The notes under the pieces were generated by a model. That model was not told where the DNA came from, did no database searches, and was given only the letters and a program-made list of their open reading frames with translations. A program made the translations under genes and the position numbers. Of a stretch of 64,000 nucleotides of DNA, positions 44,389-63,539 are shown in pieces. This DNA is from Micromonospora globbae (GTDB taxonomy: Bacteria > Actinomycetota > Actinomycetes > Mycobacteriales > Micromonosporaceae): assembly GCF_003610785.1 (NCBI RefSeq), contig NZ_RAQQ01000001.1:1-64000 (forward strand). Direction: 5' to 3'. Within the stretch, counting starts at the first letter, position 1; each line of letters starts with the position of its first letter.

Positions 44389-44410
44389 CCCGAACCGGGC
44401 GTGTCCGCGG

Positions 44411-44517
44411 CCCGGTCCGCACGCGGCCGGGTCTCGCGGCCGGTCCGCACGCGGCCGGTCCGCACGCGCCCGGTCCGCCCGCGGCCGGGTCTCGCGGCCC
44501 GGTCCGCTCACGGCGGG
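44411..44517. repeat. degenerate short tandem repeats, core GGTCCGC
   Basis: The core CGGTCCGC occurs five times (near 44413, 44441, 44456, 44471 and 44500), interspersed with GGCCGGGTCTCGCGG twice. The block fills the space between the GH1 terminator and the TMEM175-like gene. It encodes nothing recognisable. Confidence 0.7.
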
Positions 44518-44567
44518 TCCGGGCGAAGGGTCCCCACCGTCGGGCGGTGGACGGTTAGCCTGCGGCA

Positions 44568-59555: not shown

Positions 59556-59863
59556 CCGCGTCCCGCCACCGCCGGCGCCGGGGATCCACCGCTGCCGGCC
59601 TCCTGCCTCACGGCCGGTCGTTGCCGCCGCGCGTGCCACCGCCCGTCCGCCGGTCGGCACCGCTACCCGCCGCGCGTGCCACCGCCCGTCCGCCGGTCGG
59701 CACCGCTACCCGTCGGTCGACGCCGCTACCCGTCGGTCGACGCTGCCCCGCCCGTCGGTCGCACCGGCCCCGCCCGGCCGGCGCGTCGGCGTGTCCCGGG
59801 CCGGCGCGCCGACGGGCGGTTGACCGTCCTCCTCCATCGTGCTGTGCTCGGACCACGACCGTT
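59556..59863. repeat. gene-free gap with 43-bp and 20-bp tandem repeats
   Basis: After smpB about 300 bp carry no credible gene. A 43-bp unit (begins CGCCGCGCGTGCCACC) is perfectly duplicated at 59625-59667 and 59668-59710. It is followed directly by a 20-bp unit (begins CGTCGGTCGACG) at 59711-59730 and, diverging at its end, 59731-59750. Confidence 0.85.
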
Positions 59864-59899: not shown

Positions 59900-60292
59900 A
59901 TGTCCCTCACCGTCCCACCGGCCCTGCTCGACACCGCCCAGCGGGGCCCGGTCGACGACGCCGACTTCGTCGCGTGCGTCCGCGATTCGCTGCCGTACGC
60001 CTGGCAGACCGTGAGCCGCGTGGTCGCCGAACTCGACGCCACCGGGGCCGAGCACGCCGACGACGCGCTGCCCCCGCCGACCGAGGCCGAGCGCGGCCAG
60101 TTGCTCCGGGCGCTCGCGAGCGACGCCATCCGCGGCGGCCTGGAGCGGCACTTCGGCGTGCGACTGGCCTTCCAGAACTGCCACCGGGTGGCCGCGTTCC
60201 GCCCGGCGGCCGTCGACTCGGCGGCCTACCGCGACTTCGTCTCGCCCCGGGGCCAGCTGCTCAACCAGTCGCCCGAACTGCGCAACTGCTGA
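59900..60292 (+). CDS. SCO5389-family protein
   Basis: 130 aa from the ATG at 59900 (GGAGG ends 6 nt upstream). The sequence SLTVPPALLDTAQRG, then FVACVRDSLPYAWQTVSRVV, RGQLLRALASDAIRGGLERHFGVRLAFQNCHRVA in parts and GQLLNQSPELRNC matches my recollection of the conserved actinomycete SCO5389 family. No function is known to me. Conserved Cys/His in FQNCHR and the terminal Cys could bind a metal, which would fit the Zur-like palindrome over its promoter. A hairpin terminator follows at once. Confidence 0.75.
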   Translation: MSLTVPPALLDTAQRGPVDDADFVACVRDSLPYAWQTVSRVVAELDATGAEHADDALPPPTEAERGQLLRALASDAIRGGLERHFGVRLAFQNCHRVAAFRPAAVDSAAYRDFVSPRGQLLNQSPELRNC

Positions 60293-60299
60293 TGCGCAC

Positions 60300-60333
60300 G
60301 CCCGCCGTCCCTGCGCTGGCAAGGACGGCGGGC
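60300..60333. terminator. 11-bp stem hairpin after the SCO5389-family gene
   Basis: GCCCGCCGTCC (60300-60310) pairs with GGACGGCGGGC (60323-60333) around a 12-nt loop, 8 bp after the stop. Confidence 0.8.
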
Positions 60334-60343
60334 CTACGCGATT

Positions 60344-60428
60344 CGCAGTTGCGGCATCGTGTCGCCATCGCACCTCGCATCTGCGAGGAAGTCGGCCCCT
60401 TGGCCTCCGCAGCTGCGGAGGCTAGGGT
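60344..60428 (+). promoter_or_regulatory. three evenly spaced CGCANNTGCG operators on the molybdate operon promoter
   Basis: CGCAGTTGCG (60344-60353), CGCATCTGCG (60376-60385) and CGCAGCTGCG (60408-60417) lie exactly 32 bp apart. The second and third extend to longer palindromes (60373-60388 and a perfect 20 bp at 60403-60422). A promoter TTGGCC (60400-60405), 17 bp, TAGGGT (60423-60428) is interleaved: the third palindrome fills its spacer. The GTG of the regulator gene follows 6 nt after the -10. Confidence 0.75.
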
Positions 60429-60434
60429 GCTCCC

Positions 60435-60860
60435 GTGGGATCGTTCCGGATCGGGGAGGCCGCCGAACTGCTCGGCGTCAGCGCGGACACGGTCCGCCGG
60501 TGGATCGACGCCGGCCGGTTGCCGGCCGGCCGCGACGAGCACGGGCACCGCGTGATCGCCGGTGTCGACCTGGCCGCCTTCGCCCGCGGTCAGGGCGCGG
60601 ACCCGGCCGAGGGCGCCGAGTCCTCGTCGGCCCGCAACCGGCTGCGCGGCATCGTGGTCAACGTCGTGAAGGACACGGTGATGGCGCAGGTCGACATCCA
60701 GGCCGGGCCGTTCCGGATCGTGTCGCTCATGAGCCGGGAGGCGGCCGACGAGCTGGATCTCCAGGTCGGGTCGGTGGCCGTCGCGGTCATCAAGTCGACC
60801 ACGGTCGTGGTCGAGCGGGCCGCCCCGGCGGCCGGAGCGCGGGGCAGGGCCGGCGCGTGA
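60435..60860 (+). CDS. HTH-TOBE molybdate-responsive regulator
   Basis: 141 aa. Residues 1-50 are a MerR/excisionase-like HTH (FRIGEAAELLGVSADTVRRWIDAGRLPAGRDEHGHRVI in parts). Residues about 68-132 are a Mop/TOBE domain (ARNRLRGIVVNVVKDTVMAQVDIQAGPFRIVSLMSREAADEL in parts), which binds molybdate or tungstate. This compact architecture is the actinobacterial counterpart of ModE. Its stop overlaps modA (GTGA), so it is the first gene of the molybdate operon. It probably binds the CGCANNTGCG array on its own promoter. The start is leaderless by sequence. Confidence 0.88.
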   Translation: MGSFRIGEAAELLGVSADTVRRWIDAGRLPAGRDEHGHRVIAGVDLAAFARGQGADPAEGAESSSARNRLRGIVVNVVKDTVMAQVDIQAGPFRIVSLMSREAADELDLQVGSVAVAVIKSTTVVVERAAPAAGARGRAGA

Positions 60861-61639
60861 GGCGGGCACGGGTCCGCGCGACGGTGGCCACCGCGCTGGC
60901 GGTCGCCGTGGCGGCGAGCGGTTGCGGCGGTGGCGACAGCCCGGGCGGCGGCGGGTCCGGGACCTCCGGCACCGTGACGGTCTTCGCCGCGGCGTCGCTG
61001 ACCGAGTCCTTCACCCGTATCGGCGATGACTTCGAGGCCGCCAACCCGGGCACCACGGTCGTGTTCAACTTCGGTGGCAGTTCCGGCCTCGCCACCCAGA
61101 TCAACGAGGGCGCGCCGGCCGACGTGTTCGCCGCGGCCGCGCCCCGGAACATGGCGACCGTCACCGACGCCGGCAACGCCGACGGCACGCCGAGCGTCTT
61201 CGCCCGCAACCAGTTGGTGATCGCGGTGGCCCGGGGCAACCCCAGGGGGATCCGCGGCCTCGCCGACCTGACGCGGCCCGGAACGGCGGTGGCGGTCTGC
61301 GCCGAGCAGGTGCCGTGCGGGGCGGCCGCGCGGACGGCCCTGGACGCCGCGTCGGTGGACCTGACCCCGGTCACCCTCGAACAGGACGTGAAGGGCGCCC
61401 TCGCCAAGGTACGGCTCGGCGAGGTCGACGCGGCACTCGTCTACCGCACCGACGCGGCGGCGGCCGACGACGACGTCAGCGCCGTCGAGTTCCCCGAGTC
61501 GGCCCGCGCCGTCAACGACTACCCGATCGTCGCCCTCGCGGACGCGCCGAACCCGGCCGGCGCGCGGGCCTTCGTCGCGTACGTCCGCTCCGACGCCGGC
61601 CGGGCCGTGCTCACCGGGGCGGGTTTCCAGACGCCGTGA
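60857..61639 (+). CDS. modA: molybdate ABC transporter substrate-binding lipoprotein ModA
   Basis: 260 aa from the GTG at 60857, which overlaps the regulator stop by 4 bp. The lipobox is AASGC (Cys23). The mature protein shows TVFAAASLTESFTRIGDDFEAANPG in parts, FNFGGSSGLATQINEGAPADVFAAA, KVRLGEVDAALVYRTDA and FVAYVRSDAGRAVLTGAGF, all typical ModA marks with the Ser residues that bind the oxyanion. It captures molybdate outside the cell for ModBC. Confidence 0.93.
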   Translation: MRRARVRATVATALAVAVAASGCGGGDSPGGGGSGTSGTVTVFAAASLTESFTRIGDDFEAANPGTTVVFNFGGSSGLATQINEGAPADVFAAAAPRNMATVTDAGNADGTPSVFARNQLVIAVARGNPRGIRGLADLTRPGTAVAVCAEQVPCGAAARTALDAASVDLTPVTLEQDVKGALAKVRLGEVDAALVYRTDAAAADDDVSAVEFPESARAVNDYPIVALADAPNPAGARAFVAYVRSDAGRAVLTGAGFQTP

Positions 61640-62475
61640 CCGCGACCCGCGACGCCCCGCCCGCCGCGCCGGCCGTCCGGCGTACGCCCTCGCGGCGCAC
61701 CCGGATCCCCCTGCCGCTGCTGCTCCCCGCCGCGCTCGGCCTGCTCTTCCTCGTCCTGCCGCTGGGTGGACTGCTCGTCCGTACGCCGTGGTCCACCCTG
61801 CCGCAGCGCCTCACCGAGCCGGGCGCGTTGACGGCGCTGCGGCTGTCGTTGCAGACGGCGACGCTGGCCACCGGCCTCTGCCTGCTGCTCGGCGTCCCCC
61901 TGGCGTGGCTGCTCGCCCGCGTCGAGTTCCCCGGCCGGCGGATCGTCCGCGCCCTGGTCACCGTGCCCCTGGTGCTGCCGCCGGTGGTCGGCGGGGTCGC
62001 GCTGCTGCTCGTCTTCGGGCGCCGGGGGCTGCTCGGCGGCTGGCTCGACGCGACGTTCGGGATCACCCTGCCGTTCACCACCGCCGGGGTGGTGCTCGCG
62101 GAGGCGTTCGTGGCGATGCCGTTCCTCGTGATCGCCGTCGAGGGGGCGCTGCGGGCCGCCGACCCGCGCTACGAGGAGGCGGCGGCCACCCTGGGCGCCG
62201 GCCGGTGGACGACCTTCACCCGTGTCACGCTCCCGCTGGTCGCGCCGGGCCTCGCCGCCGGCGCGGTGCTGTGCTGGGCGCGGGCGCTCGGCGAGTTCGG
62301 CGCCACCATCACGTTCGCCGGCAACTACCCCGGCCGGACGCAGACGATGCCACTCGCCGTCTACCTGGCGCTGGAGACCGACCTCGAGGCCGCCATCGTG
62401 CTCAGCGTCGTGCTGCTGGCCGTCTCCGTCACCATCCTCGCGGCGCTGCGCGACCGCTGGATCAGTGCGCCGTGA
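61636..62475 (+). CDS. modB: molybdate ABC transporter permease ModB
   Basis: 279 aa from the GTG at 61636 (4-bp overlap with modA). About six membrane helices; the ModB/CysT pattern is clear (LPQRLTEPGALTALRLSLQTA, VPLVLPPVVGGVALLL, GLLGGWLDATFGITLPFTTAGVVLAEAFVAMPF in parts) with the EAA loop YEEAAATLGAGRWTTFTRVTLPL and ALGEFGATITFAGNYPGRTQTMPLAVY in parts. It forms the channel for molybdate. Confidence 0.93.
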   Translation: MTATRDAPPAAPAVRRTPSRRTRIPLPLLLPAALGLLFLVLPLGGLLVRTPWSTLPQRLTEPGALTALRLSLQTATLATGLCLLLGVPLAWLLARVEFPGRRIVRALVTVPLVLPPVVGGVALLLVFGRRGLLGGWLDATFGITLPFTTAGVVLAEAFVAMPFLVIAVEGALRAADPRYEEAAATLGAGRWTTFTRVTLPLVAPGLAAGAVLCWARALGEFGATITFAGNYPGRTQTMPLAVYLALETDLEAAIVLSVVLLAVSVTILAALRDRWISAP

Positions 62476-63539
62476 CCGCCGCGCTGCTCGACGCCCGGCT
62501 CGTGGTCGACCGGGGAGCCTTCCGGCTCGACGTGCCGCTGCGGGTGGCCGCCGGCGAGGTGGTCGCGCTGCTCGGCCCGAACGGCGCCGGCAAGACCACG
62601 GCGTTGCGGGCGCTCGCCGGCCTGCAACCGCTCACCGACGGGCACGTCACCCTGGCCGGCACGGATCTCGACCGGCCGGCGCGGGGCAGCTGGGTGCCCA
62701 CCGAACGGCGCCCGGTCGGCGTGGTCTTCCAGGACTACCTCCTGTTCCCGCACCTGACGGCCCTGGAGAACGTGGCCTTCGGGCCGCGGCGGCGCGGCGC
62801 CGACCGGCGGGCGGCTCGCGACACCGCCCGGGAGTGGCTGCGCCGGGTCGGGCTGGCCGGGCACGAGCACCGGCGGCCCCGGCAGCTCTCCGGCGGGCAG
62901 GCGCAGCGCGTCGCCCTGGCCCGGGCGCTCGCCGTGGCGCCGTCGCTGCTGCTGCTGGACGAGCCGCTCGCGGCGCTGGACGCGCGGACCCGGTTGGAGA
63001 CGCGGGCGGAGCTGCACCGGCACCTCGCCGCGCACGCCGGTGCGACCCTGCTGGTCACCCACGACCCGCTGGACGCGCTGGCGCTGGCCGACCGGCTGGT
63101 CATCGTGGAGGGTGGCCGGGTGGTGCAGGAGGGCGACGCCGAGAGCGTCACCGCCCGGCCACGCACCGACTACGTGGCCCGGCTCGTCGGCCTGAACCTC
63201 TACCGGGGCCGGGCCGACGGCGACCGGGTACGCGTGGCCGACGGACTGCACCTGACCGTCGCCGACCGGGTCACCGGCGAGGCGTACGTGGCGTTCCGGC
63301 CGGCCGCGGTGGTCGTGCACCCGGCCCGCCCCGACGGCAGCGCGCGCAACGCCTGGCCGGCCACGGTGAGCGGGGTGCAACGGCACGGCGACTACCTGCG
63401 GGTGCGCCTGGACGGGCCGATCGCCGTGGCCGCGGACGTCACGCCGGCCGCCGCCGCGCAGCTCCACCTGACCCCCGGGCAGGAGGTGTGGGCGGCCGTG
63501 AAGGCGGCCGAGACCCACGCGTACCCGGCCACCGGCTGA
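62472..63539 (+). CDS. modC: molybdate ABC transporter ATP-binding protein ModC
   Basis: 355 aa from the GTG at 62472 (4-bp overlap with modB). Walker [12 protein letters not shown]-loop VVFQDYLLFPHLT, signature QLSGGQAQRVALARALA, Walker B LLLLDEPLAALD and H-loop VTHDPLDALALA are all present. The C-terminal 110 residues contain a TOBE domain (ATVSGVQRHGDYLRVRLDG, then AAQLHLTPGQEVWAAVK) that may bind molybdate and inhibit transport at high levels. It completes the regulator-modABC operon, which is overlapped throughout by GTGA. Confidence 0.93.
   Translation: MTAALLDARLVVDRGAFRLDVPLRVAAGEVVALLGPNGAGKTTALRALAGLQPLTDGHVTLAGTDLDRPARGSWVPTERRPVGVVFQDYLLFPHLTALENVAFGPRRRGADRRAARDTAREWLRRVGLAGHEHRRPRQLSGGQAQRVALARALAVAPSLLLLDEPLAALDARTRLETRAELHRHLAAHAGATLLVTHDPLDALALADRLVIVEGGRVVQEGDAESVTARPRTDYVARLVGLNLYRGRADGDRVRVADGLHLTVADRVTGEAYVAFRPAAVVVHPARPDGSARNAWPATVSGVQRHGDYLRVRLDGPIAVAADVTPAAAAQLHLTPGQEVWAAVKAAETHAYPATG

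Follow-up and report, generated by a model that had tools for sequence, protein, structure and literature searches.

What are three copies of the palindrome CGCANNTGCG, set exactly 32 bp apart, doing in front of a molybdate-uptake operon? The array lies near the end of the first 64,000 nucleotides of contig NZ_RAQQ01000001.1 of Micromonospora globbae (the stretch analysed here, referred to as the window), where it precedes a gene for a protein with a helix-turn-helix (HTH) and a Mop domain, followed by modABC. The original prediction took the array as a candidate operator code of the actinobacterial HTH-TOBE molybdate regulator, and conservation of the sites, including in front of modA genes located apart from the regulator gene, supports this idea. 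Judging from the DNA and protein sequences, we consider it likely that the array serves the product of the first gene, the HTH-Mop protein, as its operator, and that this protein acts as a molybdate-binding repressor of its own gene and of modABC in the form of a rigid assembly of several dimers.

The decamers begin at positions 60344, 60376 and 60408, and both these positions and the exact 32-bp steps were confirmed in the window sequence. With registers counted from the promoter-proximal site, putative operator site 1 (CGCAGTTGCG, 60344..60353, 14.8 bits in the matrix described below) occupies register 2, which is conserved; site 2 occupies register 1 and is part of a perfect 16-bp palindrome (CCTCGCATCTGCGAGG, 60373..60388, decamer 60376-60385, 16.8 bits), and site 3 is part of a perfect 20-bp palindrome (60403..60422, decamer 60408-60417, 14.6 bits). 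As anticipated, the last site fills the spacer of the promoter: it occupies the 17-bp gap between a predicted -35 element (TTGGCC, 60400..60405, + strand), read from the sequence, and a predicted -10 element (TAGGGT, 60423..60428, + strand). The TT of the -35 element is conserved in the genus (28/33 and 29/33 loci), and the position of TANNNT is conserved across loci. The GTG start codon of the first gene (60435) follows 6 nucleotides past TAGGGT and the transcript is therefore predicted to be leaderless.

A degenerate copy had also been noted at 60281. It exists, with one mismatch, but it is coding and forms the last codons (R-N-C-stop) of the upstream gene, a member of the SCO5389 family (NucS shadow open reading frame) that ends at 60292 and whose profile matches reach the last residue; as a fourth site it is thus ruled out. 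One register above site 1 there is no site (-2.6 bits). This position, at about 60312 in register 3, falls between genes, within a strong hairpin. The hairpin (60299-60336), located between the SCO5389-family gene and the array, has a predicted energy of -37.3 kcal/mol for 60290-60345 (z -5.6) and no T run, and is perhaps a terminator.

Single decamers are ordinary in this DNA: the window holds 5, against 3.71 expected and at least 5 in 36 of 100 shuffles, and the whole 7.086-Mb genome holds 280. Pairs spaced by 31-33 bp, however, occur in the whole genome only as the two overlapping pairs of the array, and the reversed-pattern control gives 0. That the array consists of chance words in GC-rich DNA, or of sequence kept for another reason, would be in keeping with the abundance of single decamers; we give this explanation practically no weight, as it is in effect refuted by the statistics of spacing. 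Moreover, the stretches between the sites are little conserved in the genus. When 33 loci were aligned on site 3, relative entropy reached 0.66, 0.62 and 1.25 at the sites, compared to 0.10-0.23 for most of the alignment outside them and 0.77 in the -35 region (L017, L019, L042, L080 and L087, which have no proximal site of 5 bits, and loci short of sequence were excluded).

To describe the array beyond the genus, we used 61 genomes of relatives (59 matched), 80 named loci (the best 80 of 575 confirmed stretches) and a class sample, in which 126 of 148 genomes matched at an E-value of 1e-3, some weakly, and 98 loci were used. The non-redundant set comprises 225 of 237 loci, after removal of 12 upstream regions that share at least 80% identity with a retained one; rows L176, L178, L183 and L193 were removed as repeats and L164-L167 stand outside the counts. 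In one genome the contig ends just before the regulator gene, and its promoter is missing; the terminal stretch (L037:1-57) resembles an Illumina Nextera adapter. The scoring matrix was built on 65 promoter-proximal sites, all from outside Micromonospora (consensus about YCGCANNTGCGR), and peaks at distal positions are therefore not built into it. Mean upstream scores peak at 64 and 32 bp in the genus (31/34 loci scored), in named Micromonospora (10/12) and in other named families (42/50), at 32 and 64 bp in other Micromonosporaceae-like loci (16/18), and at 31 bp in relatives from the order (23/23); in each of these five groups the peak was reached by 0 of 200 shuffles. In the class sample, 31 bp is the leading spacing and 19 of 28 family labels have a pair. 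Conservation in related operons, whose absence had been named in advance as grounds for abandoning the prediction, is thus strong, and two to three evenly spaced copies of the palindrome, about 32 bp apart, precede predicted molybdate-uptake genes in many actinobacteria. A triple pattern with loose spacing, GCANNTGC, was not used: it matched at least 126 of 300 family genomes, the reversed control also matches often, and among the matches listed many were one recurring, coding-looking sequence (by eye, purine-synthesis-like) or repeats.

The spacing itself is strongly quantised. Among the 225 non-redundant loci, 140 of the 177 site pairs lying within about 200 nucleotides are 31-33 or 62-65 bp apart, and a periodic pair occurs in 110 loci. 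Sites on the same face of the DNA, about three turns apart, had been proposed, and three-turn and six-turn spacings are indeed common; as an account of the arrangement, however, same-face phasing is incomplete, since pairs at two turns (20-22 bp, 0/177), four turns (41-43 bp, 2/177) and five turns (52-54 bp, 0/177) are absent or nearly so.

The number of sites is restricted as well. When loci are anchored on the proximal site, with thresholds of 7 bits for this site and 6 bits for a second one, 76 of 184 have a site in register 1 and 56 of 183 have one in register 2, but register 3 is empty in all 183 (half-register controls gave 0-2). Likewise, register 3 stays below 2 bits in all 59 loci with register 2, against 1-3 loci that reach this score in equally large control windows. 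The 74 single-site loci include 27 with a weak copy in register 1 and 14 with one in register 2 (controls 1-5 in both cases). The two-site loci give scant indication of a hidden third site (4 of 50, compared to 0-2 in controls). Weak middle sites are frequent: in 33 loci with register 2 filled but register 1 below threshold, the middle position holds a degenerate in-register copy (1.65 bits on average, where control windows score -8.0 to -10.2), which rules out that these '1+3' arrays are true two-site arrays.

These figures bear on the most serious competitor of a rigid assembly, namely that each site is occupied by a separate repressor dimer whose contacts are limited to adjacent dimers on the same face, with no closed assembly. 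The distance of 31-32 bp corresponds to three helical turns, and many loci have two sites (register 1 filled and register 2 empty in 51/184) or one (77/184), showing that three dimers are not always needed. Yet phasing alone should also permit two, four and five turns, seen in 0, 2 and 0 of 177 pairs, and open-ended contacts should sometimes yield a fourth site, seen in 0 of 183 loci. We therefore regard phasing alone as insufficient, and the separate-dimer arrangement as rather unlikely, though it deserves more attention than any other alternative discussed here. A closed assembly of three dimers explains both the prevalence of three-turn and six-turn spacings over others and the lack of a fourth site, and the limit of three sites fits the three dimers of a Mop hexamer.

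The relation of the proximal site to the promoter recurs across loci. Among the 182 loci that have a proximal site, 152 show TANNNT starting 1-6 nucleotides past its decamer (a mean of 20.4 and a maximum of 33 after shuffling), and in 123 of these 152 the first ATG or GTG lies 6-7 nucleotides beyond TANNNT. MerR activators bind the promoter spacer and correct spacers of 19-20 bp. Given that the HTH of the protein is of the MerR type and that the proximal site sits in the spacer, it might be supposed that the protein mainly activates modABC, and that at low molybdate it bends or untwists the promoter from its position in the spacer. The spacer here is 17 bp rather than 19-20 bp, however, and this mechanism does not predict distal sites; we think it improbable.

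An array that belongs to the transporter would be expected to accompany modA wherever the regulator and transporter genes are separated. We therefore examined 18 genomes, drawn from 29 regulator loci for which no modA was found downstream. ModA was matched in all 18 at an E-value of 1e-3 and strongly in 16; the weak matches (G386 and G346) are outside the 16. Within 400 nucleotides upstream of modA (620 for L277), a pair at 31-33 or 62-65 bp was present in 14 of 16 cases, compared to a mean of 0.014 and a maximum of 1 in 2000 shuffling trials, and to 0 of 16 in 400 nucleotides of modA coding sequence. Two of these loci are not truly separate: in L277, which has a pair, the pair is separated from modA by an HTH gene of this type, and in L282, which has none, modA lies just behind the genome's other regulator copy. 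With both set aside, 13 of 14 modA upstream regions have a pair. The layout of site, TANNNT and GTG also recurs before several of these modA genes, e.g. in L271 and L272. The operator is present at 187 of 208 regulator loci with modA downstream and at 12 of 29 without. In family f33 (L277, L278 and L279), the modA upstream regions carry 63-bp pairs and the main regulator genes are without operator.

The same comparison leaves 21 of 208 loci with modA downstream but without a 7-bit operator despite the presence of the regulator gene, as could be expected if another regulator bound the array and the HTH-Mop protein were a mere neighbour. Against this, HTH-Mop genes were the starting point from which the array was discovered, and it recurs in the class sample, in the 19 of 28 family labels mentioned above. 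HTH-Mop relatives beyond the class point in the same direction: those with an RRWERxG-like recognition-helix region (L316-L326, families f60 and f87) have a site in 0 of 11 cases, versus 5 of 7 for the other relatives, three of which have a pair (in one, a site of the pair covers the start codon). This set is small and confounded with phylogeny, and L301, which was anchored wrongly, was excluded from it. The f60 and f87 relatives may use an operator code other than CGCANNTGCG-like sites. Overall, binding by another regulator seems quite improbable to us, slightly more so than activation by the HTH-Mop protein.

The HTH-Mop protein (141 amino acids, 60435..60860, + strand) is a predicted molybdate-responsive repressor, translated from the predicted leaderless GTG start. 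As had been stated, the first gene encodes an HTH-TOBE protein, with a MerR-like HTH (PF12728; PF00376 at 47.9 bits, cut-off 28.2) and one TOBE/Mop domain in a single stretch at residues 64-124 (PF03459 at 48.0 bits, cut-off 22.3). The predicted oxyanion-ligand residues S65, R67 and K120 are invariant and S100 is nearly so among 24 sequences; S65, R67, K120 and S100 align with the Tub ligands Ser4, Arg6, Lys60 and Ser40, respectively. An AlphaFold monomer model displays two confident domains and a loose linker (mean predicted local distance difference test score 84.5), and in Foldseek the Mop part aligns with hexameric Tub and MopII, and the HTH is closest to BldC, RacA and MerR regulators. 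Among the PDB chains listed by sequence comparison, none spans both the HTH and the Mop domain. The gene is followed on the same strand by modA, encoding a molybdate-binding protein (60857..61639, TIGR01256 at 137.4 bits, cut-off 62.5), modB, encoding a molybdate permease (61636..62475, TIGR02141 at 244 bits, cut-off 182.6), and a modC-like gene for an ATP-binding cassette ATPase with a TOBE domain of its own (62472..63539, PF00005 and PF03459 above cut-off; TIGR02142 at 206.4 bits, under the cut-off of 285 of that model). Each of these three genes overlaps the preceding one by 4 bases.

The HTH-Mop protein may work like ModE, but it is not a member of the ModE family. A ModE-type winged HTH was not found by sequence, PRK10676 and the ModE chains matching the Mop part only. 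Foldseek aligns ModE 1o7l over both domains, but poorly (143 columns, root-mean-square deviation 16.7), and 53 columns of 1b9m, for which the domain is not distinguished. The operator of E. coli ModE is AT-rich. What the HTH-Mop protein shares with E. coli ModE (1b9m and 1o7l) is the combination of HTH and Mop domains and the regulation of modABC by molybdate (PMC11980592, available in part), which is predicted here; ModE has two Mop domains, the HTH-Mop protein one. The single-Mop proteins of the Mop/Tub type (1gug and 9beb) share with it one Mop domain, the fold and the ligand residues, but they store oxyanions and have no HTH. Tub is described in the available part of the same article as a hexamer, a trimer of dimers, 45 Å across (PMC11980592). 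That text also reports predicted 'TudE/ModE-like' regulators of gut microbes, which likewise combine an HTH with one TOBE domain (PMC11980592); according to a figure legend their HTH is an HTH-9 domain, whereas the HTH-Mop protein has an HTH_17/MerR domain, and no operator for them is given in the part available.

With respect to the HTH fold, BldC (6amk and 6ama) and RacA (5i44) are, together with MerR proteins, the closest matches, though BldC and RacA have no Mop domain. RacA binds as a symmetric dimer, and BldC binds direct repeats head to tail (PMC5859096, available in part). Membership in the BldC family, which is HTH-only and uses direct repeats, is at odds with the palindromic sites, the Mop domain and a score of 21.7 bits in HTH_BldC, whose cut-off is 77. 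The HTH is thus common to the HTH-Mop protein and to MerR and BldC proteins, but the coiled coil of the former and the direct repeats of the latter are absent: in the monomer model no MerR-like dimerising coiled coil follows the HTH, only a helix (residues 43-53), the loose linker and the Mop domain. Three regularly spaced palindromes also occur in the own control region of Ss-LrpB from Sulfolobus, where DNA is wrapped; this protein is archaeal and belongs to a family unrelated to HTH-Mop.

Several observations weigh against an operator bound by one rigid assembly. In the class sample, 9 of 28 family labels are without a pair, and exact-match pairs are scarce (5/121 family genomes). A proximal site of 7 bits is missing in 41 of 225 loci, a second site of 6 bits is missing in 77 of 184 anchored loci, and 2 of the 16 modA upstream regions lack a pair. 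The fourth-site counts were taken without mapped ends of the upstream genes, which could limit a fourth site; shuffling preserved mononucleotide composition only, and the loci share common descent. The TIGR00638 match to the Mop domain (51.4 bits) falls just below the NCBIfam cut-off of 55, though the domain passes that of Pfam.

On balance, the array is probably the operator of a single-Mop repressor outside the ModE family, with several HTH dimers joined in one rigid assembly. The HTH-Mop protein would bind molybdate, which would join or stiffen contacts between Mop domains, and two or three HTH dimers, one per palindrome, would be held in a single rigid assembly, for which the hexamer seen in single-Mop proteins is the simplest candidate. 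Occupancy of site 3 would cover the promoter and exclude RNA polymerase, whereas sites 2 and 1 would raise affinity and steepen the response; when molybdate is scarce, the complex would be released and the transporter made. A more specific version, for which we see somewhat less than an even chance, is that a molybdate-loaded hexamer with D3 symmetry wraps the operator, its three HTH dimers contacting palindromes placed 120 degrees apart on a ring. By arithmetic, which is not evidence, a DNA axis that covers 120 degrees in 32 bp follows a circle of about 52 Å radius, roughly the 45-Å Mop core reported for Tub (PMC11980592) plus one HTH domain.

A scan near molybdoenzyme genes had been suggested as well, and covered two moeA loci and the molybdopterin-oxidoreductase loci of the same genome, one of which is the nuo operon. 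It returned 11 sites of at least 10 bits in about 105 kb, none of them paired at the 31-32-bp quantum; this result resembles the nine sites outside the array in the 64-kb window. Sites were placed relative to genes only in L159 and L163, and the sole other promoter-like decamer falls inside a kinase-like gene. No wider regulon was found in the few own-genome loci scanned. One molybdopterin-oxidoreductase gene in these loci (G000:C24:71303-72865, in L160) has an in-frame TGA within the match, and perhaps encodes a selenocysteine enzyme or contains a sequencing error. Elsewhere in the window, GC-rich tandem repeats lie behind smpB (59624-59776; a 43-bp unit occurring twice at 100% identity, plus units of 20-22 bp), and the first half of a tRNA-Val gene (44474-44549) overlaps a 28/58-bp tandem repeat (44406-44521).

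We recognised no paper on this operator, in a literature search that covered subscription journals poorly. The array offers a readable operator code for the control of molybdenum uptake in actinobacteria whose regulator is not ModE, and this code could help to locate modABC promoters in unannotated genomes. One protein and one 90-bp DNA suffice to test its elements, i.e. the palindrome, the spacing quantum and the upper limit of three sites. If a D3 hexamer does wrap the operator, the sensor's own symmetry would set both the spacing of its sites (31-32 bp) and their number (at most three), and repression would involve a metabolite-gated, nucleosome-like complex. The array also ties the arrangement of operator DNA unusually cleanly to the symmetry that its predicted metal sensor probably has.
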